Source: Leucogyrophana mollusca
Lineage: Eukaryota; Basidiomycota; Agaricomycetes; Boletales
Length of the DNA: 64,000 nucleotides
Reading direction: 5' to 3'
Assembly (NCBI GenBank): GCA_021014945.1
Contig: MU266345.1
Span: 33,989 to 97,988 of the forward strand
Of this stretch, positions 16,189 through 39,037 are shown piece by piece. Under the pieces are notes generated by a model that was given only the letters and a program-made list of their open reading frames with translations, ran no database searches and had not been told where the DNA came from. How positions within the stretch are numbered: the first letter of the stretch is position 1; every line of letters begins with the position of its first letter. Position numbers and translations under genes: made by a program.

Positions 16189-17450
16189 TTATACCGAGGC
16201 TACCCATTCCGCGATTGCTGTGTATGCCTCGCTGCGTTCCGGTTCATGGAAGTCAAAGGCGGGGTAGACATGAACTCCATCTGGAGCCTCGTAGTAGGTA
16301 ACCTGCCCAGCTCCAGCCCCTTCGCCCATATCCACCGCCATTTTCTTCCTCAGTGTTCTTATCTGATCAACCAAGAGCTCAGCACCGCCAGCGTTGATGA
16401 AAGTTCTTGGAAAGCCCAAAAATCTAGCCTCGCAGTGCAAAGAGGCTGGGGATATGAAACGATTGGACTCCGCAGCCTCGTTGCCTAACGCTCCTAAGTA
16501 TGCGATCTTCGGGTAGCTTTTGCGACCGTTAAGGCCGGTTCCAAGCGTGTCTGATCCGGCGAAGGAAAGCATCGAGGAGCCCGGTGTTTCATGAGAAACG
16601 CTCAAATCAATCCAGGGAGACAGCAGTATAACCCCTCCCGGAGGAGCGGGTAGGTTGTTCTCCGGATTATTTTGAGATTCTACGAGGTAGCGAACTAAAG
16701 CCAGGGCAAGGTTCCCCCCAGCGGAATCTCCTTCGACGATAATATCGGAAGGGTTGATACCCATGACATTTGTGAGGTAGTTGTAGCCGGCAAGAGAGTC
16801 GAACAATGCAGCAGGGAAGGGGTTACTCGCAGAATACGGAGCAGCTTTGGATAGTCTATACTCGATGGTAAAAGTGCGCTTGAATTGGGCGCAAAACTGC
16901 ATAAGGGCTCTGGAAATTCCCGTGGAAGGGTCGGTGGGATGAGCCGAGAGCCCAACAAATCCCCCGCCGTGAATACGGTAGAGAATTTTTTCCCCCTGCT
17001 GTAAAGGATCGCCCACAGGGATGTCCAGGCCTTCTCTGTCAATCCAGTAGCCGGGAATACGGATGGGTTCCACGCCCATGGTGGATGCCCACTCCAGCAG
17101 TTCTCCGTAAATGAGCTCTGGTACAGGATTGATCCACAAGGCTTTCACGCCTGGGCCATCATGAATTGCAAGGTGGTTAGTCCCACCCGAAGGAGGACCA
17201 ACTCTGCCAGAAATAATCAGTGACAACGTGTAGAGGCACCGGAGATGAGGACACACTTGTCATTGATCCCTGATAAATGACGGATCAGTCTAACCTGCAA
17301 GCAGCGCTTGAGTGTCCATGACGCTCTTGGGCGCCAAGATTTGGGGAGCGATAAAAGGAACCATAACGGAAACCTAACCAAGGTCGTGGTGAACAGCTGA
17401 TAAGTCAGGTAAAGCCCCCGAAATGGTTGATAGCGCAGTTCATGCACCAT
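16189..17450 (-). CDS. Alpha/beta hydrolase, HGGG (hormone-sensitive lipase-like) family
   Basis: Predicted serine esterase/lipase. Two exons, 17450-17257 and 17203-16189, give 402 residues. N-terminal 30 residues are hydrophobic (YLTYQLFTTTLVRFPLWFLL), likely a membrane anchor, followed by WRPRASWTLK. Catalytic features: oxyanion-hole HGGG at about 143-146, nucleophile in GDSAGG with Ser about 225, and a C-terminal DGVHVYPAF that supplies the histidine; the acidic residue is expected near ELLVDQ. These match the Abhydrolase_3 fold (steryl acetyl hydrolase/AB hydrolase group of fungi). Start chosen at the first ATG of the anchor-coding exon. Substrate not deducible. Upstream are relic-like exon stretches (17.6-18.45 kb). 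Confidence 0.9.
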
Positions 17451-23302: not shown

Positions 23303-25032
23303 ATGGACCCGGAGGAAGACAACCAGACTCTCAAGAACCTTGCTGTTGTGGCGCCTCCAGACAGTACTGGAATCGAAATTATCGTTGTCGGATGTGGTTA
23401 TGGCGGTCTCGCTTGCGCCATCGAATGTAAGCGCAAGGGCCATAAAGTCACCATCTTGGAGAAAATCCCAGAATTCAAAGTGCTCGGTGAGCTTCTCTGC
23501 CATCAGAATAACGCGGGAGTTCGCTGACATCGAGGCCTATAGGTGATGTACGTGCACTCATGCGTTAATTTCGATATCAGCTGACGTTCTGCAGGTCATC
23601 AGTCTTGGGCCTAACGCGGGACGGGTTTTGCAACGATGGGGCATACACGATAGGTACATCCATTTTCTCCCAGTTCGCTCGAGTGCTTATCATGTGTCTG
23701 ACAGAATATGGCCTATCTGCCGCCACGTAAATACTCTTATTCTCCACAACTATAGGGGCGAGATCGTTAGGGAACAACCCCTCCCACTTCCACTATGGGG
23801 AGCTTATGGCTATGATGGGCATCGAGCCGAGATGCATCAGGTCATCTACGATTATGCGGTATCTATCGGTGTTGACATCCGCTTCGACCATGGCGTGGAG
23901 GCCTATTATGAAGACGAGGCAAACGGAAAGGCTGGCGTAATTGTTAAAGGCACGAAGTTCGAAGCAGACCTGGTAGTCGCTGCCGATGGTGTAAAAAGCC
24001 AAGCTAGACATTACATTCTTGTGAGTAATTCACCTCCTCTCACAACAGTACTATAGGTGACCTCCCGCAGGGGTACGATGACAAACCCAGAGCTTCCGGC
24101 TATGCTATATTCCGCGCTTGGTTTGATGCCAAGGAACAAGGCGTCGACCAAGATCCTTTGACAGACTATCTCTGCAAGGATGGTGACTCTTTCTATGGAT
24201 GGATAGGTGAGTGGTCTGATTCAGCTGAGCACCCATATTTATTTGAACTGTCGTTAGGCAGGGATGTGCACTTCTTGGCGTCTTCTACTCGAGGAGGCAC
24301 GGAGATTTCATGGGTCATAACTCGCAAGTAAGGACCGTCCGGTTTGGTGTTTGGCCCTTGGCGTGATCTTTTATCTCTAATTTGCAGAAACGACTTCGAA
24401 ATCTCTGACTCTTGGTCCTTCCCTGGTAAAATGGAAGATGTCCTTGCAGTCGTCGATGGCTGGGACCCTCGATGCGCTGCTATCCTTTCGAAGGCACCTT
24501 CTTGTATCGATTGGAAACTCATCATCCATGATCCCCTTCCGACGTGGATAAGCAAGACGACACGAGTAGTGCTAATTGGAGACGCTGCTCATCCCTTCTT
24601 ACCGTGGGTTCATTTCGCCTGGATTAAAAAAGTATACTCACCTCCACGCAGGACGAGCCAACAAGGTGGCTCTCAAGCTATCGAAGACGGGGTTACGCTG
24701 GCAGCAGTTCTGCAGCTCGCCGGGAAAGACAACGTGCCTCTGGCGGTGAGATCCTGGGAGAAAATCCGGTATGTAGCCCTTGTCCCACTCCTCTAGCTGT
24801 ACTCATATTTGGCCTTAGGTACCAGCGAGTTCGTAAAAGTCAGCTCATGGGTGAAGAAGTTCGCAACAAATGGCATCAGTCGAAGCCTGAAGATCGGGGA
24901 GAGAGCTTGGATATGCCGAGACCCGAATGGCTATTCGCCTTCGATGCGGAAGCTCATGCGTATACAGTGTATGATGCAGTTGCGAGAGATATCCAGGAGA
25001 ATGGCTACCAGCTACCCACATTGCCTGTGTAG
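23303..25032 (+). CDS. FAD-dependent monooxygenase, tandem copy 1
   Basis: Class A flavin monooxygenase of the FAD_binding_3 (salicylate hydroxylase-like) type; expected to hydroxylate an aromatic or related ring using NAD(P)H and O2. Nine exons: 23303-23486, 23543-23547, 23595-23653, 23705-24020, 24071-24206, 24258-24327, 24388-24603, 24652-24768, 24819-25032; 438 residues. FAD motif GxGxxG at 30-35 (VVGCGYGG), DG motif VVAADGVKSQAR, and GD motif VVLIGDAAHPFLP are all present. Exon 2 is only 5 nt and is needed to read KVLGDVISLGPNAGR. No signal peptide or membrane helix. Versus copies 2 and 3 the N-terminus is longer, and GRD replaces the GQD that follows the fifth exon. Confidence 0.92.
23543..23547 (+). 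other. 5-nt microexon (GTGAT) of monooxygenase 1
   Basis: Flanked by introns of 56 nt (23487-23542) and 47 nt (23548-23594). Inserting these five bases is the only way to keep frame and obtain the family sequence LGDVISLG. Confidence 0.85.
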
Positions 25033-25546
25033 AGTCCACCAGCACTACTGTTAACTCACCGGGAAATCACGAAACAAATAAATAAATAGAACCATCGAAT
25101 GAGTTAGCTAACTTTAAGACTGCCACCCGCGCTCAGTTCTTTTCTCAAAGGTTCGAAAAGCAGTCACCCTCCTTTCTTCCGTCAGGCCTCTGCTTCGATA
25201 TCTACACCTTGTCTGATTGTCTTGATCGAGCATTTTCCAGGAAATTCGTTTTGGAGCCGAGCCCCGACGCTCTGGGAATATACTGAGGTCTGGATGTTGC
25301 ACACGACTTGATGAGCCTCGTGCTCTCATGAACATGGATTAATTATCTGGCGAGTTTTGCGGAACCAATCCGTTAGACTCGCACGAACCGTTCTTCGACC
25401 CGAGTATCGCGTGCGATTGTGATTAAAGAGGGAGGACTGACTCGAAGAGCAGAAGTCTGGGGTCGTCCACTGACGTCTATTGCAAGTACTCCAGCCCGGG
25501 GCGTCACATTTCTTTCGACCTTTGTATTCGCTTCGCTTGGGGAAAT
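25033..25546. other. Intergenic spacer between monooxygenases 1 and 2
   Basis: 514 bp carrying the 3' end of copy 1 and the promoter of copy 2. No other feature seen. Confidence 0.5.
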
Positions 25547-27278
25547 ATGCACGCCAACTTTGAACGCATCGCGCCTGCTGGGAGTACTGGCATCAAGGTT
25601 GTGATTGTCGGAGCCGGGTATGGTGGCCTTGGATGTGCCATTGAATGTATCCGGAAAGGTCATGACGTGGTTGTGCTCGAGAAGTTCTCCGAATTGAAGA
25701 TACAGGGTGCGTTTTCGTCCCTGCTGGGTTGTGGTACTTTTGCTGAAAGGCATTGTCTTTGCAGGCGACGTAAGTCGAATCAAGTTGGACTCGACGCATC
25801 TTTCTTACCCGAAATGTGTCCAGATCCTCAGTTTGGGACCGAACGCTGGTCGCATCCTGGCGAGATGGGGGCTGCATGACAAGTGATTCAGCTCCAACGA
25901 TTTCTCTATCGCAAGGACTAATCTTGTCATGCAGGATTTGGCCCATTTGCGGACACCATCCTGGTCTGAATCTCCATAACTACAAGGGAGAGAAGATTCG
26001 TTTCCAGGCGTCCGTACAACCTTTGTTTGGCGCGTATAGTTACAACGGACATCGCGCCGAGATCCATCAAGTGTTATTCGATCACGCTGTGTCTCTCGGT
26101 GTCCGGATTCGAATGGGCCAGGAGGTGGTATCATACTGGGAGAACGATGAGCGCAAGTCCAGTGGAGTTGTATTGCGTGGAGGAGAGTATATCGAAGCCG
26201 ATTTAGTTGTTGCTGCTGACGGTGTCAGGAGTCAGGCGAGGCGATATATCTTGGTACATTTATCGCATTTCATCGCGATTCTATTTGCTGAACTTTGTCA
26301 CCGCAGGGTTATAACGATAAGCCCAAGACATCGGGATACGCATTGTATCGTGCGTGGTTTGATGCGGCGGAGAACGGGGTCGACAAAGATCCTCTCACAA
26401 ATTACTTGTGCACGGATGGCGACGTCTTTTATGGATGGATAGGTAAGTCACAACTGACGCCACGCACCAACTACTAACATGGTTGCAGGACAAGATGTCC
26501 ACATGCTAGCCTCATCGAGCCGCAATGGAAAAACGATATCCTGGGTAATCACTCACAAGTGCGTCGCAGACACTGCATCTTGTTTACATGTCCTAAAGCT
26601 CTCGGTTATACAGGGATGACACTGACCTCCAGGATACATGGTCTTTCCCCGGAAAAACGGAAGATGTAGTCAAGATCGTTGCGGGGTGGGACCCGCGATG
26701 TGCTGCCATCCTCTCCAAAGCTCCTTCCTGCATCGATTGGAAGCTCATCGTTCACGATCCTCTTCCCACCTGGATCAGCAAGTCTGGAAGAGTTATTCTA
26801 GTCGGCGACGCCGCACATCCATTTTTGCCGTGCGTCTTCCCGCCATCGGTTTGTAAGATGGGTAATAACATTGGAATTTCCCGGTGATTTCCAGCACGAG
26901 TGCACAGGGTGCCTCGCAGGCTATCGAAGACGGGGTCACGCTGGCTGTGACTTTGCAGCTTGCGGGAAAGAACGACGTCCCACTTGCAGTGAAGTCCTGG
27001 GAGAATATTCGGTATGTTTTGGTGACTCTTTTCTCATGACAACTTTCATAGCATTGACATGTCATAGGTATCAACGCGTAAGAAACAGTCAGCTTATGGG
27101 CGAGTCGACCAGAGACAAATGGCATCAAGCCAAACCGGACGACAAGGGAGAACATTTAGATATGCCTCGACCAGAATGGCTGTTCGCTTTCGACGCTGAG
27201 GCCCATGCATACTCAGTTTACGATGGGGTAGCTAGGGAGATAGCGGAGAAAGGCTATCAGTTACCCACGCTCCCCTAA
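25547..27278 (+). CDS. FAD-dependent monooxygenase, tandem copy 2
   Basis: Same family and exon plan as copy 1. Exons: 25547-25706, 25765-25769, 25824-25882, 25935-26253, 26307-26442, 26489-26558, 26614-26829, 26895-27011, 27068-27278; 430 residues. FAD GxGxxG at 22-27 (VGAGYGG), DG motif VVAADGVRSQAR and GD motif VILVGDAAHPFLP are intact, so the enzyme should be active. The C-terminal block (DKWHQAKPDDKGEHLDMPRP) is nearly identical to copy 1. The fourth exon is one codon longer than in the other two. Differences cluster in the substrate-facing middle, which allows different substrates. Confidence 0.92.
25765..25769 (+). other. 5-nt microexon (GCGAC) of monooxygenase 2
   Basis: Preceded by TTTGCAG and followed by GTAAGT. 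Joins a phase-1 exon to the next to read QGDILSLG. Confidence 0.85.
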
Positions 27279-27776
27279 TGCGGGTCGTTAAGCTCACAAG
27301 TTCGGGACATATTCACTAATTATGCATACGATCCTACAGCTGTGATCCGTCGCGTTTGATCTCGGACGCGACCTTCGGACCAAATCAATTGAGGGTGTTA
27401 CTCTTGCTTGCTTTCCGCATGACAATAAATTACTGAGGGTGAAATTCGGCTGAGTCCATGATCCCATGGTATGCTCGGTGTTCAGTTGGCAATAACGCGT
27501 CAGTAGCATGCCGTTTTTCTACCCCTTTCGCTGATAATTTTGGGCTACAGATCGTCTAATAATCCACGCCGATGCTCGTGCCATCTGTCAGACTTCCGGC
27601 TCCTGCCCTGAGAAGCCTGTGCCCTCTTTACCTCATGTCCGAGCTATCGCACAATAAATGTGCTGTGCCCCGCTCATCGGGCCAGTACAAAGCTCGCACA
27701 TAAAGACAGTCCTAAAGCTGGATTCCCCCGATTTTTACCCTTCTCCGCGAGGCTGAACTGACCGATACCACACAAT
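27279..27776. other. Intergenic spacer between monooxygenases 2 and 3
   Basis: 498 bp; 3' end of copy 2 and promoter of copy 3. Nothing else recognised. Confidence 0.5.
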
Positions 27777-29463
27777 ATGCCACACCAAACCACACCCCCT
27801 GACGGTGAACACACTCAAATTATCATTGTAGGTGCTGGATATGCGGGCCTCGCATGCGCGATTGAGTGTAAGAGGAAAGGCCACCAAGTCCTAGTTCTGG
27901 AGAAAGTCCAGAAATTCAAGGTTCTAGGTCTGTCCACCACTTGTTCCGTCTTTCATGTCCTAATGTCTTCGCACAGGCGACGTGCGTTTTTTCTGTTATG
28001 TATGGTAGACGCTTCACTCACAGGTTCCCAGGTTATCAGTCTCGGTTCAAATGCGGGGCGCATAATAGCCAGATGGGGTCTTCATGACAAGTAGGTACTG
28101 TCGATTTCGGGTGGATATATCTTAATCCTTCGGTACAGACTGTGGGACATTTGTGGACATGCCCCCGCTCTCAAATTGCACGACTACCGAGGCGAGCTGA
28201 TCCAGGTCCAGCCATTACCTCAGCCGCTTTTTGGTGCCTATGCCTACAACGGACATCGTGCACAGATCCACGAAGTCCTATTTCAGTATGCATTATCCAT
28301 CGGTGTTGAGATTCGCATGGATCAGGACGTGGGTGGGTATTGGGAAAGTGCGGAGACTAATAAAGCTGGTGTTTTCGTACAAGGCGAGAAATTGGAGGCT
28401 GATGTGGTTGTCGCTGCGGACGGAATCAAGAGTCAGGCAAGACAGTTTATTCTGGTAAGAGGGGCGGTCTCTGGTTACATCGCTGTCAAAGCCTCATAAT
28501 GTTTAGGGATATCGCGACAATCCCAGGCCTTCCGGTTATTCTATCTATAGGGCGTGGTTCGATGCCGTAGAACACGGTATCGATACTGACACGTTGACGG
28601 ACTTTCTGTGCAAAGACGGAGACGTATTATATGGGTGGATAGGTCAGTTGCTGCCGAACTTCAGCGCTCTCTGGCTGACACACCTTCACTTTCAGGTCAA
28701 GATGTGCACTTCCTGACGTCGTCCCAACGCCAAGGAAAATCGATTTCATGGGTGATCACTCACAAGTTCGTCGGTTTTGCCCTTCATCGAGTAAATATCT
28801 CATTATATTCCAAGGGACAATACTGACATCCAAGACGGCTGGTCATTCCCGGGTAAGATAGAAGACGTACTGCGTATAGTCGAAGGGTGGGACCCTCGAT
28901 GCGCTGCAATTATATCGAAGGCACCGTCTTGCATTGACTGGAAGCTTATCGTTCATGACCCTCTCCCGACGTGGCTAAGCAAGGGGGCACGAGTTGTACT
29001 AATCGGAGACGCGGCCCATCCGTTTTTACCGTTAGTTTTTTGCAAGTTGTTGCGCGTCAGCTGATTAAGGGGTTCGCAGGACGAGTGTGCAGGGCGCATC
29101 TCAAGCTGTTGAGGATGGTGTGACACTAGCTGTCACGCTCAAGCTGGCGGGAAAAGGCGATGTACCTCTTGCGACGAGGACGTGGGAGGCGATTCGGTAT
29201 GTCCACGCCCCTTACCTGCTGCTGTAATTCCGTTATGATTTCTCCTTAACAGCTATCAGCGAGTGCGTAAAAGTCAGCTACTGGGCGAGTCCACGCGGGA
29301 TAAATGGCACCGCGCGAAGCCCGGAGACAATGGGGAGGATTTGGACCTACCAATGCCCGAATGGTTGCACGCTTTCGACGCTGAAGAACACGCCTACTCC
29401 GTTTACGACGGGATTGCAAAATCGATTCTTGAAAAAGGATATCTACTTCCGACGATCCCATGA
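27777..29463 (+). CDS. FAD-dependent monooxygenase, tandem copy 3
   Basis: Exons: 27777-27927, 27977-27981, 28032-28090, 28139-28454, 28507-28642, 28696-28765, 28815-29030, 29080-29196, 29253-29463; 426 residues. Motifs: GxGxxG at 19-24 (VGAGYAG, last Gly kept), DG motif VVAADGIKSQARQ, GD motif VVLIGDAAHPFLP. The internal exon lengths 5, 59, 316, 136, 70, 216, 117 equal those of copy 1 exactly, which strongly supports the model and common descent. Somewhat more diverged at the C-terminus (LDLPMPEWLHAFDAEEHAYS). Confidence 0.92.
27977..27981 (+). other. 5-nt microexon (GCGAC) of monooxygenase 3
   Basis: Preceded by TCGCACAG and followed by GTGCGT; restores LGDVISLG as in the paralogues. Confidence 0.85.
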
Positions 29464-36603: not shown

Positions 36604-36912
36604 AGCGCTCGTAGACGGATGATTCCGACGTCGGGACCAGTGTAACACAATTTCACGCATGCGTTTATGACATGTTCGAGGAGCATGCGGTTGCCCCGCC
36701 ATGAATAGGATGGCTTCCATCACGCGCCCTACGATACTTCTTTGACGAAACAACTCCATAATTTTAAACGAGATAAGATTTAATTGTGCCGTCAGGTATA
36801 TCTTCCATATGCCCAGTTGCACAGCCGGTGTGACTTGCGTGAGCACCTCCTGGCAAGCCGCTGCATAGTGTATCCGCTACCTGTTCCGCCAAGCAAGATA
36901 CCAATAGCTCAC
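36604..36912. other. Intergenic spacer
   Basis: 309 bp between the Cys/His-rich gene and methyltransferase 1; nothing recognised apart from the presumed promoter. Confidence 0.45.
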
Positions 36913-37584
36913 ATGGAGGACCCAAAAGAGACCGTCCGCGCTGGCTATGATGCGCTATCACTACTGTATCGGCAAGATAACGACGAACCAGTCCACCACA
37001 AAGCGTGGACCTCTCAACTCCTCGAAATACTACCCGCGCCCCCCGCCCACATCCTGGATCTAGGCTGCGGATGCGGAGTCCCCGTGGCGCGGGACCTCGC
37101 CCGCGCCGGTTACCTCATCACTGGGGTGGACATCAGTGGCGTCCAGATCGATCGCGCCAAGAAACTCGTTCCCCAGGGGACGTTTTACCAGGCGGACGTT
37201 GCGAATCCTCACCTCACCGATATCGTACCCACTTCGTCCCAATTTGACGCTATTATCGGGCTATATGTCCTTATTCACATCCCCGTTGCCGAGCAAGCGG
37301 CGCTGATGCAGCGGATGGGGGCATGGGTCAAAAATGGGGGTTACTGTATTCTGACCGTGGGTATATCGCCATGGACGGCAGAGATACGAGGGTGGTTGGG
37401 TGGCGACGAAAAAGTAAAGATGTGGTGGTCGCAAACTAGTGCGGAGGAGTACCGGAGATGGGCGAGAGACGCGGGCTTTGAGATCGTCAGAGACGAAGAA
37501 GTCAAGAACTATCGCGACCCCGATATCGAAGGACACCAGTTCCTGTTACTCAGAAAGACTCAATCGGTCGCGGAACAACCGTAA
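36913..37584 (+). CDS. Class I SAM-dependent methyltransferase, tandem copy 1
   Basis: Intronless, 223 residues. Rossmann-type methyltransferase: motif I ILDLGCGCGVPVARDLA at about 46-62 binds S-adenosylmethionine, followed by the acidic end of strand 2 in ITGVDISGVQIDRAKK and motif II/III-like FDAIIGLYVLIHIP and GGYCILTVG. Methyltransf_11/25 type; acceptor not deducible. Start ATG 36913 gives MEDPKETVRAGYDALSLLYR, which aligns residue for residue with copy 2, so the longer upstream open frame was not used. The last 50 residues (MWWSQTSAEEYRRWARDAGF) are strongly conserved between the copies. Confidence 0.9.
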   Translation: MEDPKETVRAGYDALSLLYRQDNDEPVHHKAWTSQLLEILPAPPAHILDLGCGCGVPVARDLARAGYLITGVDISGVQIDRAKKLVPQGTFYQADVANPHLTDIVPTSSQFDAIIGLYVLIHIPVAEQAALMQRMGAWVKNGGYCILTVGISPWTAEIRGWLGGDEKVKMWWSQTSAEEYRRWARDAGFEIVRDEEVKNYRDPDIEGHQFLLLRKTQSVAEQP

Positions 37585-38377
37585 TTCTTTTGTCGGCTGA
37601 ATGGATGTAGCCTGTGAATCGGCAACGCACAGTAGATGCGCAGGCACATGGGGTTGGAGGGGACTTTATGAAACCGTGTTGTTAGTCAACTTTGTAGACA
37701 TGGGGCCCGCAACGCACTAATGTCCAAGATGGGTTTGTGAAATTGTGTTGTTAGTCAACCCCGCAGACACGGAGATAGTAACGTACCGGACTTATCATTA
37801 TTATGGATATAGGTTCAGAAGCGGGCTTTGTGAAACCGTGTTGTCAATGTCGTAGACATGTTACGCTCCTGTACATTTAGGAAAGGAGCGGTCTGTATCG
37901 CTGCGGACTGCAATTAGTCATTCACGCTGGAGGAAGCTGAACTCACTGATGTAGGTGAGGTGGACGAATTCCGCATCGGCAAACAAGATATGATCGCGCA
38001 GGTCCCCCATTCCCGGGAAGTAAGTATCCTAAAGACAGGGTGGGCAAGCATCATGAAGGCGGGATGGCAAAAGGTGTCGAAGGAGAGCGTAGGAGCTTCT
38101 TCGGCCGAAGAGACGAAACGAGTCGCTTGATGGCATGCACTTTGACGTCCTGCACGAGGTTATGAGACTTGGACCTCCCTATACTCGCCTTAATGAGCGC
38201 GCCTACCACGCTTCCCCTTGGACCAATAAAGCTTCTTCTTAGCGCGAACGGATCCGATATCGCGGTGGTTATTACATGACTCGAACAACATGTGCCGGAA
38301 GAAGTATAACGGACGCCCGTCAATATACCTAATCATTTCTTCACAGAATAAACTCACCGACCAGCCGGCTTAGCTTC
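37585..38377. other. Spacer between the methyltransferases, with imperfect repeats
   Basis: 793 bp. Contains three imperfect direct repeats (37661-37861) described separately; the rest shows no gene. Confidence 0.55.
37661..37861. repeat. Three imperfect direct repeats
   Basis: Cores at about 37661-37702, 37731-37771 and 37821-37861 share TTTGTGAAACCGTGTTGT, then GTCAA and GTAGACATG-like endings. Spacing is about 70 and 90 bp. Possible remains of unequal crossing over, or repeated protein-binding sites. Confidence 0.65.
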
Positions 38378-39037
38378 ATGGATCCCAAGGAGACAGTACG
38401 CCAAGGCTATGATGCTCTATCGCTCTTATATCGCGAAGATGACGCGGATCCTGCTCAGTACAAAGCATGGGCCGCACGACTGCTCGAAGTATTACCCCCA
38501 CCGCCAGCGAACATCCTGGACATCGGATGTGGATGTGGGATCCCCATTTCACGAGACCTTGCTCTCGCGGGATACTCGGTGACGGGGGTGGACGTTAGTA
38601 AAGTTCAGATAGAACGTGCGATGCGACTCATCCCGCAAGGAAAATTCATCCACGCAGACATCACATCTGACGCACAGTTGGGGGATATAATGCAATCGCC
38701 AAGGCACTTTGATGCCATCGTCGCGTTATACGTGCTTTTCCATATTCCCCTGGACGAACAGGCTACGTTGATGAAGCGGATCGCGGGGTGGATTAAGGAA
38801 GGTGGATATTGCATAATGACAGTCGGAATTGAGCCGTGGACGGGCGAAGAGAGGGGTTGGCTTGGTAGTGATGAGCGCGTCAACATGTGGTGGTCGCAGA
38901 CAGGAGTCGAACGGTACAGAAGTTGGGCGACAGATGCAGGTTTCGAGATCGTGAGAGATGAACATGTGGCAGATCTTGTGGGTGGGGGCGACGGTCATCA
39001 GTTCTTGATGCTTAGGAGGAAGTTTGATAACCTGTAG
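38378..39037 (+). CDS. Class I SAM-dependent methyltransferase, tandem copy 2
   Basis: Intronless, 219 residues, start MDPKETVRQGYDALSLLYRE. SAM-binding motif I NILDIGCGCGIPISRDLA, then VTGVDVSKVQIERA, FDAIVALYVLFHIP and GGYCIMTVG, all matching copy 1 in order and spacing. Clearly a tandem duplicate of 36913-37584; conservation covers the full length, so both are probably functional. Acceptor substrate unknown. Could act with the monooxygenases as tailoring enzymes, but the distance (about 9 kb, with two regulators or unknowns between) makes that only a suggestion. Confidence 0.9.
   Translation: MDPKETVRQGYDALSLLYREDDADPAQYKAWAARLLEVLPPPPANILDIGCGCGIPISRDLALAGYSVTGVDVSKVQIERAMRLIPQGKFIHADITSDAQLGDIMQSPRHFDAIVALYVLFHIPLDEQATLMKRIAGWIKEGGYCIMTVGIEPWTGEERGWLGSDERVNMWWSQTGVERYRSWATDAGFEIVRDEHVADLVGGGDGHQFLMLRRKFDNL

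Follow-up and report, generated by a model that had tools for sequence, protein, structure and literature searches.

Microexons have been defined as exons of about 3-30 nucleotides (nt) (PMC11121469), and smaller ones are known. The Fusarium CYP621A genes contain an exon of a single nucleotide, and the authors of that work report that only one of the deposited transcripts is right at the motif concerned (PMC12940212). P450 genes of Phanerochaete chrysosporium have exons down to 6 base pairs (bp) (PMC1184071), and an 8-nt exon lies in the conserved I-helix motif of a Phanerochaete P450, as cited in PMC12940212. Here we analyzed a 64-kilobase (kb) stretch of DNA, hereafter the window, from Leucogyrophana mollusca, a wood-rotting basidiomycete of the order Boletales. 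It carries three tandem genes (genes 1-3) for predicted monooxygenases dependent on flavin adenine dinucleotide (FAD), and in each of them exon 2 is very probably a constitutive coding exon of five nucleotides between two ordinary short fungal introns.

Like the CYP621A exon, the exon described here is tiny, lies within a motif conserved in monooxygenases, was noticed because the exons on either side are out of phase, and was checked against an intronless relative; the CYP621A exon differs in being 1 nt rather than 5 nt long, in belonging to a P450 of ascomycetes and in having been confirmed by SRA reads (PMC12940212). The P. chrysosporium genes share the Agaricomycete setting, introns of 45-55 bp and very small exons, although their shortest exon is 6 bp, they belong to another enzyme superfamily and that report stresses microexons for 2-10 amino acids (PMC1184071). 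Xlr2 of Trichoderma virens is likewise a fungal microexon case that affects the protein; condition-dependent inclusion is reported for Xlr2 (PMC11121469), whereas our exon is described from its sequence. Among the open-licence PMC papers listed by a literature search there was no report of this exon, and three basidiomycete genome papers refer to microexons solely as an option in read mapping. Microexons of fungi, even of a single nucleotide, are thus already published, and what this exon adds is an unusually clear consequence for annotation.

In each gene a 5-mer, GTGAT in gene 1 and GCGAC in genes 2 and 3, is directly preceded by AG and directly followed by GT. The original prediction had placed these three 5-mers between two normal introns, and its coordinates are correct to the base (Table 1). 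Intron 1 is in phase 1 and intron 2 in phase 0 in all three genes, and the flanking introns are of normal size, the remaining 18 introns of genes 1-3 measuring 46-65 nt. Since exon 1 ends with the first base of a Gly codon, the 5-mer supplies the other two bases (GT or GC) followed by an Asp codon (GAT or GAC). It is required to read the family block LGD(V/I)(I/L)SLG, which follows closely on the first part of the FAD-binding domain; as had been claimed, the five nucleotides are needed for both the frame and the Gly-Asp, and joining exon 1 straight to exon 3 leads to a stop at codon 68 (gene 1), 72 (gene 2) or 69 (gene 3). All three paralogues therefore have a very short exon with a plausible acceptor and donor and with the same length and coding content. 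The pattern YAGGYGAYGTRNGT, which was defined after the sites were known, has three matches on the two strands of the 64-kb window, all at the microexons, where 0.04 would be expected. Further downstream, exons 3, 5, 6, 7 and 8 have the same length in all three genes (59, 136, 70, 216 and 117 nt) and exon 4 measures 316, 319 and 316 nt in genes 1, 2 and 3.

The proteins read in this way are predicted to be fungal FAD-dependent monooxygenases (MAK1-like, group A). In a scan of the gene 2 protein only, the FAD-binding domain PF01494 scored 90.1 bits against a curated cut-off of 22, and the same protein is similar over its length to PDB entries 7cp6 (a MAK1-like monooxygenase; E=1.5e-74, query 9-427) and 7kpq (CtdE; E=2.3e-72, query 15-422), so that both the domain and the full-length similarity expected of this family were found. 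Its best solved relatives, 7cp6, 7kpq and 6pvf, compared as proteins, all have the Gly-Asp at the same place in the block; the spacing is canonical in two of them, and 7cp6 has one extra residue before the Gly-Asp. Furthermore, the deposited L. mollusca proteins P0001 and P0005 match the microexon models of genes 2 and 3 letter for letter. The L. mollusca genome has 24 PF01494 matches, and another search of it listed 13 matches, nine of which lie inside genes 1-3. In a paralogue on contig C104 the site is read through in one exon with no intron and aligns gap-free; the matches on C490 and C55 are distant, with probably an intron near the site. A scan of a viral contig collection found no relative.

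To compare the microexon with other ways of reading each interval, we ranked models by their fit to a profile built from 58 ascomycete relatives only. The models had zero to two GT-AG introns with a minimum length of 35 nt, kept the frame without a stop, and took their donors no further upstream than about 16 nt before exon 1 ends. The microexon model ranked first among the 8, 24 and 24 candidates for genes 1, 2 and 3, with 561.6, 583.4 and 546.5 bits against 550.9, 578.4 and 537.9 bits for the runners-up (margins of 10.7, 5.0 and 8.6 bits). A separate enumeration of frame-keeping single-intron GT/GC-AG solutions yielded 8, 19 and 16 for the three genes, and here too the microexon model came first.

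The original prediction had argued that three independent copies with the same phase and length make chance unlikely. Length and phase are indeed shared, but the copies are tandem duplicates and thus represent independent retentions, not independent origins. Moreover, in 5000 dinucleotide shuffles of each gene's interval (introns of at least 40 nt, internal exon below 30 nt), some frame-restoring exon shorter than 30 nt appeared in 1465, 2150 and 1258 shuffles for genes 1, 2 and 3, and one of exactly 5 nt in 366, 551 and 332 (about 7-11%); frame-restoring exons encoding Gly-Asp appeared in only 3, 4 and 3. It is therefore the Gly-Asp content that excludes chance, length and phase being weak arguments.

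What counts is that the 5-nt exon has been retained despite saturated silent sites. Four-fold degenerate sites are identical between gene pairs at 37/140, 42/139 and 36/138 positions (26-30%), which amounts to saturation, and the intron cores of the copies align no better than shuffled sequence in most of 24 comparisons, the best one (intron 3, genes 1 and 2) being equalled by 5 of 300 shuffles. The microexon copies differ solely at third positions and synonymously (GGT/GGC, GAT/GAC). In a FastTree tree, which took in 10 of the 58 ascomycete proteins and was used solely to place genes 1-3, each of the three has a Hygrophoropsis protein as partner: P0007 for gene 1 (together with Serpula P0035, in a set of six), P0002 for gene 2 and P0008 for gene 3. 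P0108 and P0133 carry a disrupted-block label in this tree although their block is canonical. On this grouping the triplication is probably older than the divergence of these genera, with the microexon having been inherited; it probably predates the three-fold tandem duplication and is presumably common to other Agaricomycetes. The Hygrophoropsis aurantiaca orthologues of all three paralogues (P0007, P0002 and P0008) apparently lie together on one short contig (36600 nt), and two of these three models, P0002 and P0007, are altered at the microexon block.

We next considered the block in relatives, compared as protein models: 147 listed proteins (the best 120 of each of two protein searches, overlaps counted once), whose counts ignore kinship and so do not represent independent events. 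Gly-Asp stands at the canonical spacing in all 58 ascomycete-named proteins, and there is accordingly no sign of a microexon in that group. Among the 76 basidiomycete-named proteins it is canonical in 37 and not in 33, and the upstream anchor is missing in 6; the corresponding numbers for 13 proteins without an organism label are 10, 1 and 2. Part of the 33 non-canonical models are N-terminally short, and one of them, Cyathus P0030, has an intact block with one extra residue before it. Seven of the 76 are of a sister type with an insert after the block, and all seven are intact.

In the other 69 basidiomycete proteins, which form the clade of interest, the microexon site is clean in 32, carries an insertion or deletion in 35 and is missing in 2. 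Thus 37/69 are not clean at this site, as compared with 9, 4, 0, 5, 5 and 3 of 69 at six other exon-junction sites of gene 2 used as controls, and the site is clean in 58/58 ascomycete and 7/7 sister-type proteins. This bears out the suggestion that homologues may be mis-annotated. The exon is not missed in every case, since the deposited models of genes 2 and 3 contain it. All 65 of these control proteins score as changed at junction 3, where the insert is real, so the measure by itself does not separate error from true difference; a Fisher comparison of 39/69 with 0/65 was not relied on, because it takes over the canonical-spacing classes, puts P0030 among the broken models and disregards the kinship of the proteins.

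The altered blocks also resemble particular misreadings. LGE occurs at the site in 6/69 clade proteins and GDVR in 2/69, and neither occurs in the 65 controls or the 13 proteins without an organism label. LGE would be expected from read-through of an intron 1 donor of the form G/GTGAG, gene 1 itself giving KVLGELLCHQNN, and GDVR from a microexon read on into an intron 2 donor of the form GTRCG, in which case genes 1 and 3 would give LGDVR. The GDVR cases are from Artomyces (Russulales) and Suillus, and the LGE cases include Phellopilus (Hymenochaetales); broken blocks are also seen in Heliocybe (Gloeophyllales) and Ramaria (Gomphales). The six proteins of the Dacrymycetes Dacryopinax and Calocera are all intact. 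These models suggest that the microexon is common to several Agaricomycete orders. We consider it unlikely that the exon has been kept since the common ancestor of Boletales, Russulales, Hymenochaetales, Gloeophyllales and Gomphales as a built-in on/off control based on its non-triplet length, maintained by regulation in addition to protein sequence.

Short contigs of relatives, some of them probably complementary DNA (cDNA), also favour the microexon. The proteins without an organism label include ten whose contigs do not exceed 3217 nt. The block is complete in all seven of those that span the site, while P0060, P0076 and P0087 start downstream of it. In four of these seven, contigs of 1555-1646 nt encode 430-461 amino acids, which leaves no room for eight introns of about 50 nt in addition to the reading frame; these contigs are thus probably cDNA. 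P0032, from a 1733-nt contig, is 96.0% identical to P0043, a Suillus hirtellus prediction, and the only internal gap between them falls at the block (LEKVRELKQLGDLLSLGPN vs LEKAGTKATLGPN). It is also 96.4% identical to P0049 of Suillus fuscotomentosus, which reads LKQLGHLGPN at the block and in addition lacks 12 residues (GETFDADVIVAA) from the middle of a region that is one exon in the window genes, probably a second prediction error; given that gap, P0043 and not P0049 served as the clean comparison. The likeliest explanation is that the genome models behind P0043 and P0049 are wrong at the block. In P0060 (1740-nt contig) the frame starts in what appears to be retained intron 3 sequence before RIWELCRH, which suggests a partly spliced transcript.

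Taken together, these results support a conserved 5-nt exon that is essential to the frame and is often annotated wrongly in homologous genes. This reading is carried by the sequence and phase of the exon, its best fit to the family, the synonymous-only differences between the copies and the deposited gene 2 and gene 3 proteins. An exon of 5 nt is presumably hard for the spliceosome. Where fungal introns measure some 50 nt, pairing of splice sites most likely takes place across the intron, and such pairing here would mean that exon size is not limiting and that a tiny exon is tolerable. The two introns would be removed one after the other, because the intron 1 acceptor and the intron 2 donor, 5 nt apart, would be too close to be bound simultaneously; a study of splicing order points to the same limit for animal microexons and finds that, in most of those dependent on SRRM4, the downstream intron is the first to leave (PMC10250204). 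Skipping would shift the frame, cut the FAD domain after about 70 residues and leave a null protein, so that selection would keep both length and content.

An additional possibility, which overlaps with the constitutive exon and would add to it, is a regulated switch in which inclusion of the microexon gives the enzyme and skipping gives a frameshifted RNA for decay. The exon length is not a multiple of three, and a microexon switch has been published for Trichoderma Xlr2 (PMC11121469). The gene 1 microexon itself begins with GT (23543-23553), and removal of intron 1 makes a donor-like G/GTGATG, 5 nt upstream of the real donor, at which a second splice could remove the five nucleotides. This competing donor scores 3.2 bits against 5.7 for the real one. 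The equivalent positions in genes 2 and 3, however, have GC and score -9.3 and -3.2 bits, so the extra donor is not conserved. We regard such a switch as improbable.

Several points nevertheless weigh against the constitutive 5-nt exon. Among the matches listed, the gene 1 model has no identical deposited counterpart, although the protein set is clustered at 90% and the gene 1 protein may sit unseen in the cluster of P0007, which has three members. Single-intron rivals that keep the frame exist for genes 1 and 3, at 10.7 and 8.6 bits below the microexon model. For gene 2 the rival is a two-intron model with a different 5-nt exon (25750-25754, reading IQGIILSLG); it fits only 5.0 bits worse, but its splice-score sum is far weaker, at 9.7 vs 23.7 for the microexon model. 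The microexon sites fall within the range of splice scores set by the 18 other introns, except for three of 12 that lie slightly below it: the intron 1 donors of genes 1 and 2 score 4.8 and 3.9 bits (weakest training donor 5.1) and the intron 2 acceptor of gene 2 scores 3.4 bits (weakest training acceptor 3.6), which is partly because the 18 training sites are scored in-sample. A branch-like YTNAY at the usual distance is present in 17 of these 18 introns and in five of the six flanking the microexons, and is absent from intron 1 of gene 2. Lastly, the short contigs are taken as cDNA from their size only.

The rivals of genes 1 and 3 belong to an alternative in which there is no microexon, and each gene instead has a single longer intron with another acceptor, or a retained intron: intron 23487-23580 in gene 1 (VLADVLQVISLG), intron 27928-28023 in gene 3 (VLGSQVISLG) and retention of intron 2 in gene 2 (QGDVSRIKLDSTHLSYPKCVQILSLG). 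These models keep the frame and use GT-AG sites, and comparable solutions have been picked by many genome predictions in relatives; the forms with acceptors 23580 and 28023, the runners-up in the ranking above, are the type of error expected from a predictor. Retaining intron 2 of gene 2 would give a 448-residue protein with an 18-residue insert in the FAD domain, and retaining both introns of gene 3 also keeps the frame. Against this, the profile fit is worse in genes 1 and 3 by the margins given, and the retention form of gene 2 falls outside the six best models (at most 574.3 vs 583.4 bits). Three copies would require three different solutions, the deposited gene 2 and gene 3 proteins use none of them, and a conserved YAGGYGAYGTRNGT within saturated intron sequence would be left unexplained. 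We therefore consider the absence of a microexon very unlikely. A stwintron (nested intron), in which the whole interval from exon 1 to exon 3, roughly 104-117 nt, is removed in two steps with nothing kept, is scarcely credible and was rejected on frame, for although two adjoining GT-AG units look the same on DNA as consecutive splicing and stwintrons are known in fungi, complete removal shifts the frame into a stop at codon 68, 72 or 69, and the five nucleotides encode the family Gly-Asp and vary only synonymously.

Table 1. Positions in the window of the three monooxygenase genes and of their exons and introns around the microexon (aa, amino acids).
Feature	Position	Strand	Remarks
Gene 1	23303..25032	+	9 exons, 438 aa, predicted FAD monooxygenase
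Gene 1 exon 1	23303..23486	+	ends with first base of Gly codon, phase 1
Gene 1 intron 1	23487..23542	+	56 nt, GTGAGC...ATAG
Gene 1 microexon GTGAT	23543..23547	+	last two bases of Gly codon and Asp codon
Gene 1 intron 2	23548..23594	+	47 nt, GTACGT...GCAG; contains rival acceptor 23580
Gene 1 exon 3	23595..23653	+	begins VISLGPNAGRVLQRWGIHD
Gene 2	25547..27278	+	9 exons, 430 aa; identical to deposited L. mollusca P0001 (monooxygenase)
Gene 2 exon 1	25547..25706	+	
Gene 2 intron 1	25707..25764	+	58 nt, GTGCGT...GCAG
Gene 2 microexon GCGAC	25765..25769	+	
Gene 2 intron 2	25770..25823	+	54 nt, GTAAGT...CCAG; multiple of three, no in-frame stop
Gene 2 exon 3	25824..25882	+	
Gene 3	27777..29463	+	9 exons, 426 aa; identical to deposited L. 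mollusca P0005
Gene 3 exon 1	27777..27927	+	
Gene 3 intron 1	27928..27976	+	49 nt, GTCTGT...ACAG
Gene 3 microexon GCGAC	27977..27981	+	
Gene 3 intron 2	27982..28031	+	50 nt, GTGCGT...CCAG; contains rival acceptor 28023
Gene 3 exon 3	28032..28090	+	

Elsewhere in the window, two similar adjoining open frames at 36784-37584 and 38333-39037 (DLGCGCGVPVARDLA and DIGCGCGIPISRDLA) are apparently another tandem duplication, and presumably encode proteins resembling methyltransferases dependent on S-adenosylmethionine. An open frame on the minus strand (16189-17259) resembles an alpha/beta hydrolase (HGGG...GDSAGGNLA).

A single exon of 5 nt thus appears to spoil over half of the listed basidiomycete clade models, and errors of this kind, lying inside a conserved block of the FAD domain, affect family trees, the cloning of synthetic genes and structure prediction. 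In addition, the site offers a simple test system for the splicing of a 5-nt exon: as three paralogues with unrelated introns splice it, the features they share should be those that the fungal spliceosome needs. If a wider occurrence of the microexon in Agaricomycetes proves true on DNA, it would represent deep conservation of a frame-shifting exon.

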